Shown: piece by piece, positions 4,296 through 13,923 of the stretch
Position numbering within the stretch: the stretch's first letter is position 1
Layout: each line of letters begins with the position of its first letter
NCBI GenBank assembly: GCA_030651765.1
Contig: JAUSBY010000011.1
Span: forward strand, 62,001-126,000
Length of the DNA: 64,000 nucleotides
Direction: 5' to 3'
Origin: Coriobacteriia bacterium
GTDB taxonomy: Bacteria > Actinomycetota > Coriobacteriia > Anaerosomatales > Anaerosomataceae
The notes under the pieces: generated by a model
What the model was told of the DNA's origin: nothing
The model's database searches: none
The model's input: only the letters and a program-made list of their open reading frames with translations
Made by a program: the position numbers and the translations under genes

Positions 4296-5003
4296 CTACT
4301 TGAGTGCGTCGAGCGCGTCTCGCAAGACGGTCTCCTCCTGCGCACCCACGATCATCTGACCCACCGAGCCATCGGCGTTCAGGAACACGAACGTGGGAAC
4401 GAACTGTGCGTTGTACTTCGTCATGAGGGCCTGGCCCTCGGAATCCGTATCCACATTGACCAGCCGGAACTCGACGGTTCCCTCGTACTCTGTCTTGAGC
4501 CTGTCGACCACAGGCGCCACTTCGCGGCAGCTGGGTCACCAGTCGGTGTAGAACTCGTACGCGACCGGGAGCGAACTCGTCTGGGCATCGGCATCCGCCG
4601 GCGACTCGCTTATGGGGGGCGCTCCCCCGGCAAGTTCGCCGTTCCACGCGATGATGCCCGCCGACAGGTCGTAGACCCGCGCGAAGCCGAGTGAGCGCAG
4701 GATCTGCGCGGCCTCGGCGCTACGCTCGCCCGTGGCGCAGTACACCACGATCGGCTCGGCCGGATCCCAGGATGCTGCCGCTGCAGAGAGTCCCATCAGC
4801 GGAACGTTCTCGGCACCGGCGATGTACCCGGCCCCATACTCTCCGGCGGTACGGACGTCGACGATACGCGCCCCGTCAGCCTGCAAGTCCGCCAATCGTC
4901 CGTTGTCGACGACGCCGGACTCGGTAGAACATGCGGAAAGCGCGAATCCTGCCGCTATGATCACCGCAGCCAGGAGTGACGCCGACCGTTTGAAACGACC
5001 CAT
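4296..5003 (-). CDS. Rhodanese-thioredoxin fusion lipoprotein with in-frame TGA (predicted selenocysteine)
   Basis: 235 residues if the TGA at 4538-4536 is read as selenocysteine. The ATG at 5003 has GGAGGT 4 nt upstream. A lipoprotein signal ends at the lipobox LSAC (Cys25). A rhodanese domain spans about residues 33-130, with active-site loop CATGER (Cys89). A thioredoxin domain follows, with FYTDW then the TGA (residue 156), then PSCREVAPVV, so the usual WCxxC becomes W-U-P-S-C. The rest of the thioredoxin fold is intact in the same frame (NVDTD, the cis-Pro region FVPTFVF, DGSVGQMIVG) and ends in TAG. The natural role would be sulfane-sulfur or thiol-disulfide exchange at the outer membrane face. 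It stands alone, divergent from the glucan synthase. Alternative: truncation by a nonsense mutation. Confidence 0.82.
4505..4538 (-). promoter_or_regulatory. SECIS-like stem-loop starting at the recoded TGA
   Basis: In the mRNA the TGA opens a long hairpin: UGACC pairs with GGUCG, CAG with CUG, and UGCCGC with GUGGCG, leaving a GAA apical loop that begins with G. There is one C-C mismatch and one bulged U, 14 bp in total. Bacterial SECIS elements lie directly 3' of the UGA inside the coding sequence. Here the loop starts about 12 nt after the UGA, slightly closer than in typical bacterial examples. Confidence 0.55.
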
Positions 5004-5033
5004 GTGACCTCCGATCCGATAGCCATCGGAACT

Positions 5034-5063
5034 ACGATACCCATTGGGGTATGCCTCTAGCAA
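5034..5063 (-). promoter_or_regulatory. Promoter with CsoR/CstR-like palindrome for the selenoprotein gene
   Basis: On the minus strand TTGCTA (5063-5058) and TATCGT (5039-5034) are spaced 18 nt. The spacer holds the palindrome ATACCCCAATGGGTAT (5052-5037), which overlaps the -10. CsoR-family operators have the form TACCC...GGGTA, and the persulfide sensor CstR of this family controls rhodanese genes. The regulator itself is not in the window. Confidence 0.5.
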
Positions 5064-5160: not shown

Positions 5161-8100
5161 GTGAGATCCGTCACGGCGACAGACGAGGTCGTGCTACCTG
5201 CTGCTGCACTGCCGCTGCGCGGTGGACTCCTCGGCGCGGACCGTCTCGCCGCTTCGGCTCGCGCTCTCGCGCGCGATCAGAGGTGGACGTGTGCGACGCG
5301 CGGGTCTCGGACACCGCTGCTCGATCTCGTCGCGATCGCGGAGCGGGAACTGGCCACCGCGTACCGGAGGCTGGCCGCAGACGTCCACGAGAACATTCCG
5401 GTCTCTCCCGCCGCCGAATGGCTGCTGGACAACTACTACCTCATCGAGGAACAGATCCGGCTCGTACGCGACGACCTCCCCGCACACTACGGCGCGGAGC
5501 TCCCCCGGCTCTCGACCGGTGACTACCGGTCTCTGCCCCGCGTCTTCGAGATGATGGTCACCCTCGTCTCACACACCGACTCGCGTATAGACCAGACGAG
5601 CCTCGAGTTGTTCACGATGGCCTACCAAGACGCCTCACCGCTGACCATCGGCGAGGTCTGGGCCGTCCCGATCATGCTGCGGATCACCCTCGTTGAGAAC
5701 CTCCGGCGCCTCGCCCTCAGGATCCTTGACGCACATCAGTCGGTCGTGGCCGGCGACCGCTTCGCCGACCGGCTGCTCGCTGCGGGAGACGAAGGGGCCG
5801 GAGCGGTCGCTGTGCGCATCACCGAGCTCGATCTCGCCCATGCCGAGACGCCAGCGCCGTTCATCGTGCGACTGTCGCAGCGCCTCGCCGGTCAGGACGT
5901 CGCCCTCGCGCCGCTTGCCGACTGGCTGGAGGCGACACTCGCCGCCCGCGACGTGACGCTTGAGCAGGTGACGCTTGCTGCACATCAGGAACAGGCGGCC
6001 GATCAGGTCTCGGTGGCCAACGCGATAACGAGCGTCCGCTTCCTCGACGCGCTCGAATGGCGTGACTTCTTCGAGCACACGAGCCTCGTCGAACACGTCT
6101 TGCGGGAGGACCCCTCCGGCACGTACGCCAGGATGGACTTCCGGAGTCGCGATCGCTACCGGCACGCGATCGAGTCGATCGCCCGGCGCTGCCCCCTCGA
6201 TGAGATCGGCATCGCTGAAGCCGCGATGAGCCACGCACTCGACGCGCTCGCCAAGGACCCGGCCGATGCAGTGCGCGGTCATGTCGGTCACTACCTCATC
6301 AGCTCGGGGCGCTACACCTTCGAGCAGGCGATCGGCTATCGCCCGCATCTCAAGGAACGCCTGTATCGCGGTCCGCTCGCGGCGCGCGGCCTCGTCTTCT
6401 GGGGGCTGTTTGCGCTCATCACCGTCGCCCTTGCCGCAGGCGTCAGCCTGTTCGCGTGGAACGTCTCGGAAAGCGTCGGCGTCGCGGTCGTACTGGCGCT
6501 GCTGGCGCTGCTGCCGGTCTCCGACGTTGCGCTCACCATCGTCAACCGGGTCGCGGCGTGGCTCTGGCCAGCACGGGCGCTCCCCAAGATCGACTACCGC
6601 AAGCCCGTATCCCCCGCGCACCGCACGATGGTGGTCTACACGGCGCTGCTGACATCTCCACAGTCCGCACGACATGTGATCGACAACATGGAGATCGGGT
6701 ACCTGGCCAACATCGACCCCAGCATCCGGTTCGGCATCCTGGCCGACCTACGCGGCGCAGCCGAGGAGAGCCTGCCCGGAGATGCGGCCATCATAGAGGC
6801 GGCCCGAAACGGCATCGAGGTTCTCAACGATCGATACGGACGATTCGGCAGCCGCCCGTTCAGTCTCTTCGTCCGTGGTCGCACCTACAGCGAGGCCGAC
6901 CGGACCTGGATGGGCTGGGAGCGCAAGCGCGGTGCGCTGACCGAGTTCTGCCGACTGCTTCGGGGAGCGACAGATACCTCGTTCGAGGTCGTCGACGGGG
7001 ATGCGGCCGGGTTCCACGGCGTAACGTTCCTCGTGACGCTTGACACCGATACCGTGCTGCCGCGCGACGGCGCGCGCAAACTGATCTCGACGATCGCCCA
7101 CCCGTTGAACAGGGCCGAACTCGACCCTGTCACACGAACCGTCAAGCGCGGATACGGATTCGTGCAGCCGCGCGTGACGATGTCGCTCGAGGGCTCGACA
7201 GACAGCCTCTTCGCGTGGATCTACTCGGGCGTCACCGGCATCGATCCGTACGCGGGCGCCGTCTCGGACACCTACCAGGACGTCTTCGACGAGGGCTCGT
7301 TCACCGGCAAGGGAATCTTCGAGATCGACATCTTCAACGCCGCACTCGACGAGCGCTTCCCGGAGAACACGCTGCTCTCTCACGACCTGCTCGAGGGATC
7401 GTACCTTCGTACCGCGCTCGCGTCGGACGTGGAGGTCCTCGACGACCAGCCCGCGAGCTACATCTCGCACTGCGCACGACTGCACCGATGGGTCCGCGGC
7501 GACTGGCAGACGATCCCGTGGCTCATGCCTCGAGTCCCGGTGGTGGGTGGGACCGAGCGAACCCCGCTCACCGGTCTCCATCGCTGGAAGATCACCGACA
7601 ACCTCCGGCGGAGCCTCTCGGCACCCGCCATGATGCTCTTCGCGACGGCTGGCTTCACGCTCCTGCCTGACGCGGGCTGGACGTGGCTCGGCATCCTGTT
7701 CGCGCTGCTCTTCTTCCCGCTGTACTTCCAGTTCGCCGACTCCGTGGTCTTCCGCAGGCCCCCCGCAGACACACGCTCGGACACCACGACCTTCGTCTCG
7801 GACCTCAAGCGCGACGTCCTCCGCAACCTTCTCAACGTCGCGGTGCTGCCTCACCAGGCGTACCTCATGACCGACGCGATCGTCCGTGCATGCTGGCGCA
7901 TGGCCATGAGCCACCGAAACCTCCTCGAGTGGGAGACCGCTGCCGAGTCCGAGCGCCGGCTCGGCACGACCGACCTTGGCGCGTTCGCCAAGCGGATGTG
8001 GCCCGCGACTGCGATCACCGCACTCCTCGCGGTCCCCGTGGCACTCGGCGCCGCCGGACCCCGGGCGCTGCTTTCGGCAGCCCCCCTGTTCGCGGTGTGG

Positions 8101-11100
8101 CTGACCGCACCGCTGGCAGCGTGGCGTGCGAGCCGCCCGACCCCCGAGCCGGAGTCGGGCGTAGTACCGGCCGATGTAGCGGCGATGCGACGCATCGCCC
8201 GCAAGACCTGGCAGTTCTTCGAGACGTTCGTGACCGCCGAGTCGCATCACCTTGCGCCGGACAACTTCCAGGAGGAGCCGAAGGGTGAGGTCGCCCATCG
8301 CACCTCGCCCACGAACATGGGGCTTCAGCTCATCTCGTACTTGACCGCGCACGACCTGGGCTATGTGACGGTGGCCGGACTCGCCGGGCACGTGTCGCGA
8401 ACACTGCACACGATGGTAGGCATGGAGCGCTTCCGCGGACACTTCTACAATTGGTACGACACCCTCACGTTGCAGCCGCTCCGTCCCACATACGTTTCCA
8501 CAGTCGACTCGGGCAACCTCGCGGGACACCTGCTCACGCTCCGGGTCGGACTCCTTGAGGCCTCGGAGCGCGAGCTGCTCGGCCCACAGACGCTCGACGG
8601 CATCGCCGATACCGCGCGTCTTGCGCTCGAGGAACTCCAGCGCGCGCGTCGGGCGCCACACGACGGCCCTGCCCTTTCGCAGGCGCACACCGCGCTCGAG
8701 GAGATCGTCCGACGCATCGGCCTGGACAGCCCTCCCGAGAACCTCGGCGAGTGGCTGGCCACGCTCGAGGGCCTGTCGGCACTCGCCGATGCCCTCCCCG
8801 CCTCGCTCGAGGTGCCCGACGCAGAGCCTCACGGAGCACCTGCGGACGCAAGTACGAGCGCAGCGCTCGGTGACCTTCGGACGGCCATAGCTGCGCCGCT
8901 CGGTCTCATCGCGGACCTTGCGCCCTGGGCACGCGACGTACTCGCCGCGGCTGGCACCCACGCCGGTCGGCCCGACGGCGCCCTCGAGCCGCTCATCGGC
9001 CATGTGCCGAGTCTCGTCGGGCTCGCCGAGGGGCTTGCCGGGGCGCTCACACGCCTCGATGAGATGGCGGCGGGAGACGGGCCGGACGCCGGATGGGCGG
9101 AACGTGTGGCCGACGGCATCCGACGCAGCCGGACGCCCGCCGCGGCACTGCTCGCAGAGCTCCGCCTTGCGGCCGATATCGCGCGGGAGATGTGGGAGCA
9201 CACAGACTTCGCGATGCTCTACGACGAGCATCGCATGCTCTTCTCCATCGGCTTCAACGCAGCCGAGGGCCGCCTGGACGACTCGTACTACGACATGCTT
9301 GCAAGCGAGTGCCGTCTGGCGAGCTTCCTGGCCGTCGCCAAAGGAGACGTGGGGCAGGAGCACTGGTTCCGCCTCGGACGCGCGATAACGCGTACCGGCG
9401 ACGGTACTGCGCTCGTCAGCTGGAGTGCGAGCATGTTCGAGTACCTCATGCCGCTGCTCGTGATGAAGAGTTGGCCGGACACGCTGCTTCATCGCACGTA
9501 CGTAAGCGTCGTGCGGAGGCAGATCCAGTACGGTCGTCAACGAGGTGTGCCGTGGGGCGTCTCCGAGTCGGCGTTCAACGCCAAAGACGTGGAGCTCACC
9601 TACCAGTACCAGGCATTCGGGGTACCCGGACTCGGGCTCAAGCGCGGCCTCTCGGCCGACGTCGTCATCGCCCCGTACGCCACCGTGCTCGCGCTCATGG
9701 TCGCGCCGCGCAATGCTCTCGACAACCTGGCCGAGATCGCGAAACAGGGCGGCGAGGGCCGCTACGGCTATTACGAGGCTATCGACTACACGCCGGGGCG
9801 TGTGCCGGCCGGGCGCGAGCGCGCGATCGTCAAGGCGTACATGGCACACCACCAGGGAATGAGCCTCGTCGCACTCGGCAACATGCTCACGGACTTCCGC
9901 ATGCAGGAGCGCTTCCACGCCGACCCGCTCGTCGCCTCGGCCGAGTTGCTGCTCCAGGAGCGCGTGCCGCGGCGCATCCAGCTTGCAGCGCCGCGCGTGG
10001 AAGAGGTCGAGTTCGTGAGATCGGTGCGCGAGGTGCCGCCGCCGGTCACACGCGCGTACCCTCTCGCAAACACCGCGGTGCCGGCCACGCACTTCCTCTC
10101 GAACGGCACCTACTCGGTCATGGTCACCAACGGCGGCGGCGGCTACAGCCGGTGGAAGGACCGCACCGTCACCCGCTACCGCGAGGATCTCACCCGCGAC
10201 TGCTGGGGCACGTTCCTGTACCTCAAGGACGTCGAAAACGGCCGCTTGTGGTCGGCGGCGTTCCAGCCGACGCTCGCCGAGCCGGACGACTATCACGTCA
10301 CCTTCTCGGCGGACAAGGCCGACTTCCGCCGGTACGACGGTGAGGTGGAGACCCACACCGAGGTGATCGTCTCCCCGGAAGACGACGTCGAGGTACGCCG
10401 TCTGACGGTCACGAACCACGGCACCGAACCGCTCGCGCTTGAGGTGACGTCGTACCTCGAGGTGAACCTCGCGCCGTTGGGGGCCGATCACGCGCACAAG
10501 GCGTACAGCAACCTGTTCGTGCAGACCGAGGCGATCGACGAGTACCACGCGCTGCTGTTCACGCGGCGGCCCCGCTCGGATGACGAACCACGGTACTGGG
10601 GACTGCACATGCTGGCGTGCGAGAGCATCGGGTCATGCTCGTGGTCGTACGAGACCGACCGGGCCGCCTTCCTCGGCAGACTGCGCACGCCGGTCGACGC
10701 CCGTGCGATCCACGGCGACGGACGCCTGACGAAGACGACCGGAGCGGTCCTCGATCCGATGTGCTCGATCAGGCAACCGCTCGTGATCGAGGCCGGGCAG
10801 AGCGCCCACCTCGCCTACGTGACCGGTGCCGCGGAGTCGCGCGAAGAGGTGATGGCACTCGCGGAGAAGTACTCGGACATCGCCAACGCGCAGCGCGCGG
10901 CCGACCTTGCGTGGTCGACAAGCCAGATCGAACTGCGAGACCTCGGGATAACGCCCGAAGAGTCGGTCACGTTCCTCCGGCTTGCGTCGCGACTACTGCT
11001 CACCGATCCGCACTCGCGACTCAAAGAGATGACCGAGGTGGAGAACCGACTCCCGGCCTCGGGGCTGTGGCCGATCGGGATCTCGGGAGACGACCCGATC

Positions 11101-13923
11101 CTGCTCGTCAAGATCGAGCGGCTCGAGGAGGCGCCGCTCGTGCGGCAGGCGCTACTCGCGCACCAGTACTGGCGCAGCAAGGGCTTCGTGTGCGACCTCG
11201 TGATCCTGAACACCAAGCCGAGCGACTACGCTTCGGAGCTCAACGGTCGCCTGCGGATGCTCATGCGGACGGGTCACGCACTCCAGCTCGCCGACCGGCC
11301 GGGTGGCGTGCATCTGCGCAACGCCGACCACATGCAGCCCGACGTACTCAACCTGCTCACGAGCATGGCCCGCGTCGTCATCACCGGCGACAGCGGCCCG
11401 ATCACGCTCCAGCTCAACCAGCGCGCGCAGCACCCCGATCTGCCCGACCCGTTCGTGCCGACGCGCGATGCGGTGACGTATCCGAACGTCCCGCGCGTGC
11501 GGCCCGAGCTGCTCTTCGACAACGGACTCGGCGGCTTCGACCCCGTCACCGGCGAATACGTCATCGTGCTCGAAGGAGGGCGCACCACGCCGGCGCCGTG
11601 GGTCAATGTGATCGCCACACCGCACTTCGGCACGCTCGTATCCGAGGCGGGCATCGGCTGCACGTGGGCCGAGAACAGCCACGAGAACCGTATCACCACG
11701 TGGAACAACGATCCGGTCTCGGACGGCACGGGCGAATGCATCTACGTCCGGGATGAGGCGACCGGGCAGTTCTGGAGTCCGACGCCGCTGCCCGTTAACG
11801 ACGACGGAACGTACATCGTGCGTCACGGAAAGGGCTACTCCCGCTTCGAGCACGACAGGCACGGCATCGGCCACGAGCTCGACTGGTTCGTGGCCGCTGA
11901 AGATCCGGTCAGGATTGCACGACTTCGGCTCACCAACACCGGCACGCAAGCCCGGCGCCTCTCGGTCACCCACAACGTGGAGTGGAGCCTCGGCGACTCG
12001 CGCAGCAAGGCGCAGCAGCGCGTCGTGACGTGGTGGGACGAGACCGCCGGGATGCTCATGGCCCACAGCTGGTTCAACATGGACTTCCCCGGGCGCCCGG
12101 CGTTTCTGGCTTCCGATGGGGAGCTGCACTCGTTCACAGCGAGCCGTACCGAGTTCATCGGCCGAAACGGCACACCGACTGCTCCGGCGGCGATGCGTCG
12201 TCGCGGCCTCGGCGGGCAGACCGGCCGGTTCCACGACAACTGTGGCGCGCTGATGCGAATCGTCGAGCTCCAGCCCGGCGAGAGCAGAGAGCTCGTCTTC
12301 CTGCTCGGCCAGACCGAGACCGTGGAGGCGGCACACGCCATCGTCGACCGCCTGAGACAGCCGGGCGCTGCCGCCGCGGAACTCGAATCGGTCAAGGTGG
12401 CCTGGCGAGAGTTGCTCACGACGGTGGAGGTGCAGACCCCGGACCGGGCGCTCGACCTCATGGTCAACGGACAGGCGCTCTACCAGTCGCTCGCCTGCCG
12501 CGTCTGGGGTCGCACCGCCACGTATCAGTCGTCCGGCGCCTACGGCTTCCGCGACCAGCTGCAAGACTGCCTTGCGCTGATCGATATACGCCCGGACCTT
12601 GTGCGCGAGCACATCATCGAGGCGTCACGACACCAGTTCCCCGAGGGGGACGTGCTGCACTGGTGGCAGCCGATCAGCGGGCGGGGCGTCCGCACGCACA
12701 TCAGCGACGACCGGCACTGGCTGCCGTTCGTCACCGCGGAGTACGTGCGTGCCACCGGCGATACGAGCGTGCTCGATGTGGAGACCCCGTACCTCGAGGG
12801 CCCCCCGATCCCCGACGGGCGCGAGGACCTCTACCTCCAACCGAACCCCTCCCTGACCGTTGCCACCGTCTACGACCACTGTCTCGGCGCGCTCGACCAC
12901 GCCCCCCTGGGCGAACGTGAGTTGCCCCTTATGGGCGGCGGCGACTGGAACGACGGCATGAACCGCGTAGGCATCGGCGGTCGCGGGGAGAGCGTGTGGA
13001 TGGCCTGGTTCCTCGACGTCGTCATGCGGTCGTTCGCCGGGATCTGTGACCGAAGGGGCGATGCGGCGCGCGCGGTCTCACTGCGCGCGCGAGCCGCGGC
13101 GCTCGTGGCCGCCATCGAGCGGTCCGGCTGGGACGGGTCGTGGTACCGACGCGCGTACTTCGATGACGGCACGCCTCTCGGCTCTTCGCAGTCAGCCGAA
13201 TGCCGGATAGATGCGATCGCGCAGGCGTGGTCCGTACTGTCCGGCCAGGGCGATCCCGAGCGGGCGCGGCGCGCCATGGAGTCGGTGGAAGAGCAGCTCG
13301 TGCGCTGGGACGACGGTCTCATCAAACTGCTCGCGCCGCCGTTCGACCTGCTCGAGCACGATCCCGGATATATCAAGGGATACGTACCGGGCGTGCGCGA
13401 GAACGGCGGGCAGTACACGCATGCGGCGCTGTGGGTCGCCCTCGCCTACGCTCGACTCGGCGACGGCGACGAGGCCCACTCCCTGCTGAGCCTCATCAAT
13501 CCGATACGACACGCACTGGACGCTGCTGCCGTGGAGCGCTATCACGTGGAGCCCTACGTGGTCGCCGCCGACGTCTACGCTGTCGAACCGCACGTCGGTC
13601 GGGGCGGCTGGACCTGGTACACCGGTTCGGCGGCGTGGTTCTACCGGGTGGCCGTGCGCGAGCTACTGGGCCTGCGCACCGAATCAGACGATGACGGCCG
13701 TTGGCTCATCATCGATCCGTGCGTGCCAAAGACGTGGACCTCGTTCCGGCTGACGTATCGTTCGGGCGACACGCGCTACGACATCGCGGTCGAGAACCCC
13801 CGCGGCGCTAACCGGGGTGTCGCGCATGTCACGCTCGATGGCACACGGGTCGACGACTGCCGCATCCCGCTGCTCTCCGACGGTGCCGCCCATGAGGTCA
13901 CCGTTTCGATGATCGGCGGCTGA
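5161..13923 (+). CDS. Cyclic beta-1,2-glucan synthase-like protein (GT84 + glucoamylase-like + GH94)
   Basis: 2920 residues, close to Brucella Cgs and Rhizobium NdvB (about 2830-2870). The GTG at 5161 has GAGGGGA upstream. Membrane helices lie near residues 410-465, 831-863 and 945-987. Between them sits a glycosyltransferase with LDTDT (about 627) and HRWVRGDWQ (about 777). A glucoamylase-like domain follows from about 1020 (FYNWYDT). Two related carbohydrate-binding/hydrolase blocks end in a GH94 phosphorylase module with GGGDWNDGM (about 2592-2600), which holds the catalytic Asp, and a terminal GWTWYTGSAAW. The enzyme would build a UDP-glucose-derived beta-1,2-glucan, close it into a ring and trim it. 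No transporter or glucan-modifying gene is adjacent. It is unusual for an actinobacterium-like genome; product linkage is inferred from family only. Confidence 0.9.
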   Translation: MRSVTATDEVVLPAAALPLRGGLLGADRLAASARALARDQRWTCATRGSRTPLLDLVAIAERELATAYRRLAADVHENIPVSPAAEWLLDNYYLIEEQIRLVRDDLPAHYGAELPRLSTGDYRSLPRVFEMMVTLVSHTDSRIDQTSLELFTMAYQDASPLTIGEVWAVPIMLRITLVENLRRLALRILDAHQSVVAGDRFADRLLAAGDEGAGAVAVRITELDLAHAETPAPFIVRLSQRLAGQDVALAPLADWLEATLAARDVTLEQVTLAAHQEQAADQVSVANAITSVRFLDALEWRDFFEHTSLVEHVLREDPSGTYARMDFRSRDRYRHAIESIARRCPLDEIGIAEAAMSHALDALAKDPADAVRGHVGHYLISSGRYTFEQAIGYRPHLKERLYRGPLAARGLVFWGLFALITVALAAGVSLFAWNVSESVGVAVVLALLALLPVSDVALTIVNRVAAWLWPARALPKIDYRKPVSPAHRTMVVYTALLTSPQSARHVIDNMEIGYLANIDPSIRFGILADLRGAAEESLPGDAAIIEAARNGIEVLNDRYGRFGSRPFSLFVRGRTYSEADRTWMGWERKRGALTEFCRLLRGATDTSFEVVDGDAAGFHGVTFLVTLDTDTVLPRDGARKLISTIAHPLNRAELDPVTRTVKRGYGFVQPRVTMSLEGSTDSLFAWIYSGVTGIDPYAGAVSDTYQDVFDEGSFTGKGIFEIDIFNAALDERFPENTLLSHDLLEGSYLRTALASDVEVLDDQPASYISHCARLHRWVRGDWQTIPWLMPRVPVVGGTERTPLTGLHRWKITDNLRRSLSAPAMMLFATAGFTLLPDAGWTWLGILFALLFFPLYFQFADSVVFRRPPADTRSDTTTFVSDLKRDVLRNLLNVAVLPHQAYLMTDAIVRACWRMAMSHRNLLEWETAAESERRLGTTDLGAFAKRMWPATAITALLAVPVALGAAGPRALLSAAPLFAVWLTAPLAAWRASRPTPEPESGVVPADVAAMRRIARKTWQFFETFVTAESHHLAPDNFQEEPKGEVAHRTSPTNMGLQLISYLTAHDLGYVTVAGLAGHVSRTLHTMVGMERFRGHFYNWYDTLTLQPLRPTYVSTVDSGNLAGHLLTLRVGLLEASERELLGPQTLDGIADTARLALEELQRARRAPHDGPALSQAHTALEEIVRRIGLDSPPENLGEWLATLEGLSALADALPASLEVPDAEPHGAPADASTSAALGDLRTAIAAPLGLIADLAPWARDVLAAAGTHAGRPDGALEPLIGHVPSLVGLAEGLAGALTRLDEMAAGDGPDAGWAERVADGIRRSRTPAAALLAELRLAADIAREMWEHTDFAMLYDEHRMLFSIGFNAAEGRLDDSYYDMLASECRLASFLAVAKGDVGQEHWFRLGRAITRTGDGTALVSWSASMFEYLMPLLVMKSWPDTLLHRTYVSVVRRQIQYGRQRGVPWGVSESAFNAKDVELTYQYQAFGVPGLGLKRGLSADVVIAPYATVLALMVAPRNALDNLAEIAKQGGEGRYGYYEAIDYTPGRVPAGRERAIVKAYMAHHQGMSLVALGNMLTDFRMQERFHADPLVASAELLLQERVPRRIQLAAPRVEEVEFVRSVREVPPPVTRAYPLANTAVPATHFLSNGTYSVMVTNGGGGYSRWKDRTVTRYREDLTRDCWGTFLYLKDVENGRLWSAAFQPTLAEPDDYHVTFSADKADFRRYDGEVETHTEVIVSPEDDVEVRRLTVTNHGTEPLALEVTSYLEVNLAPLGADHAHKAYSNLFVQTEAIDEYHALLFTRRPRSDDEPRYWGLHMLACESIGSCSWSYETDRAAFLGRLRTPVDARAIHGDGRLTKTTGAVLDPMCSIRQPLVIEAGQSAHLAYVTGAAESREEVMALAEKYSDIANAQRAADLAWSTSQIELRDLGITPEESVTFLRLASRLLLTDPHSRLKEMTEVENRLPASGLWPIGISGDDPILLVKIERLEEAPLVRQALLAHQYWRSKGFVCDLVILNTKPSDYASELNGRLRMLMRTGHALQLADRPGGVHLRNADHMQPDVLNLLTSMARVVITGDSGPITLQLNQRAQHPDLPDPFVPTRDAVTYPNVPRVRPELLFDNGLGGFDPVTGEYVIVLEGGRTTPAPWVNVIATPHFGTLVSEAGIGCTWAENSHENRITTWNNDPVSDGTGECIYVRDEATGQFWSPTPLPVNDDGTYIVRHGKGYSRFEHDRHGIGHELDWFVAAEDPVRIARLRLTNTGTQARRLSVTHNVEWSLGDSRSKAQQRVVTWWDETAGMLMAHSWFNMDFPGRPAFLASDGELHSFTASRTEFIGRNGTPTAPAAMRRRGLGGQTGRFHDNCGALMRIVELQPGESRELVFLLGQTETVEAAHAIVDRLRQPGAAAAELESVKVAWRELLTTVEVQTPDRALDLMVNGQALYQSLACRVWGRTATYQSSGAYGFRDQLQDCLALIDIRPDLVREHIIEASRHQFPEGDVLHWWQPISGRGVRTHISDDRHWLPFVTAEYVRATGDTSVLDVETPYLEGPPIPDGREDLYLQPNPSLTVATVYDHCLGALDHAPLGERELPLMGGGDWNDGMNRVGIGGRGESVWMAWFLDVVMRSFAGICDRRGDAARAVSLRARAAALVAAIERSGWDGSWYRRAYFDDGTPLGSSQSAECRIDAIAQAWSVLSGQGDPERARRAMESVEEQLVRWDDGLIKLLAPPFDLLEHDPGYIKGYVPGVRENGGQYTHAALWVALAYARLGDGDEAHSLLSLINPIRHALDAAAVERYHVEPYVVAADVYAVEPHVGRGGWTWYTGSAAWFYRVAVRELLGLRTESDDDGRWLIIDPCVPKTWTSFRLTYRSGDTRYDIAVENPRGANRGVAHVTLDGTRVDDCRIPLLSDGAAHEVTVSMIGG

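Follow-up and report, generated by a model that had tools for sequence, protein, structure and literature searches.

On its minus strand, at positions 5003-4296, the window (the whole stretch of 64,000 nucleotides that was analysed) carries a single frame of 236 codons with exactly one in-frame TGA inside. The frame opens with ATG (5003-5001), has 155 codons before the TGA (4538-4536, Sec156) and 79 codons after it, and ends with TAG (4298-4296). The original prediction held that this TGA stands where a thioredoxin motif has its first active-site Cys (W-TGA-P-S-C-R-E) and that coding is intact for 155 codons before and 79 codons after it; both statements were confirmed at these positions. The features of the locus are the following.

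5058..5063, minus strand: probable -35 box TTGCTA (sequence; TTGCT at the same position in most homologues)
5037..5052, no strand: operator ATACCCCAATGGGTAT, a perfect palindrome of the CsoR/CstR type that overlaps the -10 region
5034..5039, minus strand: probable -10 box TATCGT, TATAAT-like in many homologues, overlapping the operator end
5008..5012, minus strand: ribosome binding site GGAGG (sequence)
4296..5003, minus strand: rhodanese-Sec-thioredoxin gene; product of 235 amino acids with Sec156, stop codon TAG
4929..5003, minus strand: N-terminal export/anchor segment, residues 1-25, lipobox LSAC (sequence; AlphaFold2 helix 6-23)
4638..4895, minus strand: rhodanese domain, residues 37-122 (Pfam PF00581, E 5.4e-17)
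4737..4739, minus strand: rhodanese catalytic Cys89 in the loop C-A-T-G-E-R-S; Cys in 29/30 homologues
4308..4577, minus strand: thioredoxin domain, residues 143-232, motif W-U-P-S-C (Pfam PF00085; thioredoxin fold match, E 1e-8)
4536..4538, minus strand: in-frame TGA, selenocysteine 156; TGA in 30/30 and 53/53 homologues
4499..4515, minus strand: SECIS apical hairpin GCCUGU-GGUCG-ACAGGC, 6-pair stem; all cells paired in 27 distinct sequences

Both domains expected from the original prediction, a downstream thioredoxin with its usual features and an upstream rhodanese with its active Cys, were recovered. Sec156 lies in the context D-W-U-P-S-C-R-E, in place of the first active-site Cys of the thioredoxin domain. 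As in other UxxC thioredoxins, this half matches the Thioredoxin model of Pfam (PF00085, residues 143-232, E 1e-14) and has invariant U156, C159 and cis-Pro P203; in a fold search with the whole chain, thioredoxins rank first. The upstream half combines the PF00581 fold with a catalytic Cys in a 6-residue loop, as in single-domain rhodaneses, and one homologue (L042) has Tyr instead of this Cys. A low-complexity linker joins the two domains, and an AlphaFold2 model based on 30 homologues contains two confident domains (mean pLDDT 86) and a disordered linker at 128-139. The proposed lipoprotein anchor holds for the species of the window, where LSAC occupies residues 22-25, but not in general, since in many relatives the hydrophobic segment at the N-terminus lacks the lipobox Cys. 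The feature common to the homologues is a predicted outward-facing membrane anchor.

A search of 398 Coriobacteriia genomes gave 53 full-length homologues from 51 related genomes, all of which hold exactly one TGA; none has Cys at the position of Sec156, which is the comparison that the original prediction had proposed for this residue. At the 30 loci that were read codon by codon, the TGA is always at the identical position and is always followed by exactly 79 codons, so that homologues ending at the TGA, which had been named as evidence against a selenoprotein, did not occur. The part after the TGA has a dN/dS of about 0.06-0.27 in pairs with measurable divergence, indicating purifying selection. 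Since the TGA is kept in every homologue, it is not the sequencing error that the original prediction had also considered. In one genome (G043) the gene seemed to be split, but the interruption is a run of N where the assembly has a gap.

Standard gene-calling software would break the gene in two at the TGA, as if the TGA were a true stop arising from a nonsense mutation, a sequencing error or the presence of two genes. We regard this explanation, together with its variant in which a changed code makes TGA specify Trp or Gly, as extremely improbable. A true stop does not agree with the presence of the TGA in 53 of 53 homologues, with a continuation that is intact and under selection, or with the SECIS covariation and complete Sec apparatus described below. 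As for the code, TGA also serves as the end codon of 10 of the 30 homologues and of 14 of the 28 long ORFs in the window; therefore, the code is standard and TGA is not reassigned. On the basis of the conserved TGA, the selected continuation and the TGA stops elsewhere, we rejected a pseudogene, a sequencing error and code reassignment.

The original prediction did not include a SECIS element, an operator and regulon, or the order-wide distribution, which are described in the present analysis. The hairpin is located 21-37 nt downstream of the TGA and has the consensus G-C-C-[U/C/G]-G-U-GGUCG-A-C-[A/G/C]-G-G-C, with an invariant G-U in the loop. Among the 27 distinct sequences, the stem is paired in 100% of cells, and its one variable pair changes in a compensatory manner (U-A in 17, C-G in 9 and G-C in 1). 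The covariation score was reached by none of 500 shuffles, and when the pairing partners were slid, only 18-50% were paired. Through the stem changes, the third position of a Pro codon varies together with the first position of an Arg/Gly codon, a coupling that protein constraint does not demand. When the 54 nt of the window are folded in isolation, the structure of minimum free energy is a different one and not the SECIS hairpin, but the comparative test did support the hairpin. Thus, by comparison, the downstream SECIS hairpin typical of a bacterial selenoprotein accompanies a conserved UGA at a redox position with coding beyond it.

The genome was also searched for the Sec apparatus, as had been suggested, and all four genes were present.

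C8:44581-45498: selD, which is a selenoprotein gene too (one in-frame TGA)
C8:53218: selA
C8:55054: selB
C8:63627: tRNA-Sec (selC)

Across 61 genomes, the co-occurrence of the fusion and selA is weak (38/46 versus 10/15) because some drafts are without selA. In G010, G013 and G036, three genomes that carry the fusion and are nearly complete, selA gave no match, probably owing to assembly gaps. In view of the conserved TGA, the selection, the SECIS covariation and selA/B/C/D, the rhodanese-thioredoxin gene is almost certainly a real selenoprotein gene, and the prediction of a new selenoprotein is borne out.

A second, diverged tRNA-Sec lies at 12174-12270 of another contig (C13; L051, G000), next to a C-terminal fragment of SelB at the contig end. 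We rejected a second Sec system, since the contig is diverged from and syntenic with C8 (75-91% DNA identity). Because it is also short (12.6 kb), a contaminant from a relative is the more likely source, and the contig is probably derived from a related species.

The fusion family is confined to one order of Coriobacteriia, most likely OPB41/Anaerosomatales: none of the 329 genomes outside the order in the 398-genome search gave a match at E 1e-20. The named relatives in the collection are Coriobacteriia, including EMTCatB1, which makes OPB41/Anaerosomatales the probable order. The viral collection contained no close relative of the fusion, and the plasmid collection no full-length homologue. 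Anaerosoma tenue, which is in culture and belongs to the order presumed here, produces sulfide from thiosulfate and sulfur (PMC9686372), in favour of the sulfur-related role proposed below.

The operator pattern ATACCYNNNNRGGTAT has 5 copies in the 2.26-Mb genome and is present in 59 of 61 relatives; the reversed pattern, used as a control, was found 0 times in all 61. Of the 29 homologues whose upstream sequence is long enough, 25 are preceded by the pattern (24 detected by script and L047 by eye). The 4 homologues without it all belong to one genus, and they count against the explanation favoured below. The genome has one gene for a CsoR-family repressor, as have 58 of 61 genomes, and in G037 and G051 both repressor and operator are missing, as is the fusion. 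All 30 repressors examined have two Cys 29 residues apart and Ser or Ala at the position of the CsoR copper-ligand His. This combination (CsoR family, Cys/Cys 29 apart, no His ligand) is that of a CstR-type repressor, so that the protein carries a putative persulfide-sensor signature. The assignment of operator and repressor is strongly supported, and the inducer would be persulfide or other sulfane sulfur.

In this genome, the operator also heads the genes for a thioredoxin, a transporter and a membrane protein of the DsbD/CcdA type, as well as a ferredoxin gene together with a second conserved TGA gene. The regulon was read from about 50 sites of the operator, spread over nine genomes, and a recurrent set emerged with an operator spacing of 27-46 nt in most cases. 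It consists of a repressor-adjacent CGPC thioredoxin, CcdA/DsbD_TM and the rhodanese-Sec-thioredoxin, and further of a ferredoxin followed by the second TGA gene, an SBF/ACR3-like transporter and a large FAD oxidase. CcdA/DsbD_TM and the CGPC thioredoxin share the operator of the fusion at a similar spacing (30-46 nt). The product of the second TGA gene is ArsD/DUF1462-like and carries CWGGGUG or a similar motif; the TGA is present in 12 of 12 distinct copies, and the product has no NCBIfam match. Matches to CacheSensor among the operator-linked genes were noise caused by a misplaced reference start.

An operon of a 4Fe-4S ferredoxin and the second putative selenoprotein lies outside the window behind the same operator (L061:5640-6230, plus strand; contig C7, about 188640-189230), with the motif CWGGGUGPSW.

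The same operator sequence occurs on an Arthrobacter plasmid beside a Cys/Cys, no-His CsoR-family protein, in a cluster that also holds four rhodaneses, a thioredoxin, TauE/SafE and an MBL-rhodanese hydrolase. Through this independent cluster, sulfane sulfur is connected with the operator, the type of repressor, rhodanese and thioredoxin. Alternatively, the repressor of the same regulon might sense a metal or metalloid, such as arsenite or Cu(I), and the selenoprotein might serve metalloid reduction or tolerance. The SBF/ACR3-like transporter, the ArsD/DUF1462-like selenoprotein, a weak ArsG score of the DsbD_TM protein and a general resemblance of the operator to CsoR operators would fit such a role. 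We consider it unlikely, since the ACR3 and ArsG scores are far under the curated cut-offs, the copper-ligand His is replaced in all the repressors examined, and both the rhodanese domain and the Arthrobacter sulfur cluster indicate sulfane sulfur.

Comparison of the sequences establishes Sec coding, the export/anchor segment, both catalytic residues and the operator shared with CcdA and thioredoxin; from these we infer that the protein is likely to be a membrane-anchored persulfide reductase outside the cytoplasm, which CcdA and thioredoxin re-reduce and which belongs to a CstR-like regulon. On the comparative evidence, UGA156 is decoded as selenocysteine by SelB and tRNA-Sec with the hairpin 21-37 nt downstream. 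Cys89 of the rhodanese would take sulfane sulfur, the presumed substrate, from thiosulfate, polysulfide or an organic persulfide, and Sec156 of the tethered thioredoxin would reduce the Cys89 persulfide, giving sulfide and a Sec156-Cys159 selenosulfide. The latter may be re-reduced across the membrane by the co-regulated CcdA/DsbD_TM with electrons from cytoplasmic thioredoxin. TsoB, which joins a rhodanese, a DsbD membrane domain and a thioredoxin in one selenoprotein, provides a Rosetta-stone argument for this electron path. The CstR-like repressor, bound over the -10 box, would block transcription and would be released once sulfane sulfur modifies its two cysteines.

The Sec-thioredoxin might instead be a general extracytoplasmic disulfide or sulfenate reductase (similar to TlpA, ResA or DsbD gamma), for example in cytochrome c maturation, with the rhodanese as a sulfur-binding accessory. 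In favour of such a role, a CcdA partner and thioredoxin are co-regulated, the genome has multihaem-cytochrome-like genes, and Sec-thioredoxins without rhodanese are found in three relatives. Retention of the rhodanese catalytic Cys in 29 of 30 homologues and a regulon devoid of cytochrome c biogenesis genes except CcdA make this a decidedly unlikely role. The rhodanese-less proteins (G004:C87, G005:C23 and G006:C32; L128, L249 and L248) are membrane-anchored and close kin of the thioredoxin half of the fusion; further, more distant UxxC paralogues occur in several genomes.

The persulfide-reductase reading can be extended, tentatively, to the regulon as a whole: one CstR-like persulfide sensor may control two order-specific selenoproteins (the rhodanese-UxxC-thioredoxin and the ArsD-like protein with C-x4-U) and a CcdA/thioredoxin relay that feeds one of them, forming a Sec-based transmembrane persulfide/thiosulfate reductase. 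Known CstR (CsoR-like sulfurtransferase repressor) regulons are similar in having a repressor with two Cys and no His, a palindromic C/G-rich operator, and rhodanese and other sulfur-related targets. In contrast, the targets here lie at scattered positions of the genome; among them are two TGA-encoded selenoproteins, CcdA, a ferredoxin and an SBF transporter. Such a selenium-based sulfur-stress regulon could well be previously undescribed, although we hold this view with reserve.

Known UxxC thioredoxin selenoproteins (Trx, PF00085; thiol:disulfide interchange protein, PF13098) have the same fold, with Sec for the first active-site Cys. In the examined passages of PMC9312934 and PMC13188914 they are given as thioredoxins without a rhodanese partner; unlike them, the window protein has a membrane anchor and a fused rhodanese. 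TsoB (NF045694, rhodanese/DsbD fusion-like selenoprotein) unites the same three functions in a model of 572 positions with the motif UxxxxU, whereas the window protein has one Sec and CcdA is a separate gene. The window protein scores 53.5 bits against the NF045694 cut-off of 805 and has no DsbD membrane domain in its chain. Rhodanese-like selenoproteins forms 1-4 (UxxS, UxxG, CxU) likewise contain a rhodanese domain, but, judged by the listed motifs and the models, their Sec is in the rhodanese part, whereas here Cys89 is kept and Sec is in the thioredoxin.

Fusions of selenoproteins in general are already known (PMC2398784). This one, which the original prediction did not recognise as described, is absent from the selenoprotein tables of PMC9312934 (2022) and PMC13188914 (2026), as far as their examined passages go, and is not a named NCBIfam family; no NCBIfam model covers it over the cut-off, in a search whose scope was these models, and an unpublished annotation among RefSeq proteins may exist. 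In the rhodanese-Sec-thioredoxin fusion, known domains are combined in a new architecture. The fusion connects selenocysteine with the handling of sulfane sulfur twice, by the joined domains and by the shared operator, and it supplies an inducer and a partner that can be tested directly. The union of a sulfur acceptor and a Sec reductase in one chain suggests why selenium may have been kept, namely for a persulfide reductase. Annotation pipelines would end the protein at the TGA, with the loss of its catalytic half; therefore, a conserved part of the sulfur and redox biology of this lineage, which is widespread in the subsurface, is probably mis-annotated.

Divergently from the fusion gene, the window contains a gene for 2920 amino acids (5161-13923, plus strand) that resembles cyclic beta-1,2-glucan synthase, and a similar large divergent gene adjoins the fusion in several relatives (L095, L101, L116 and L120).
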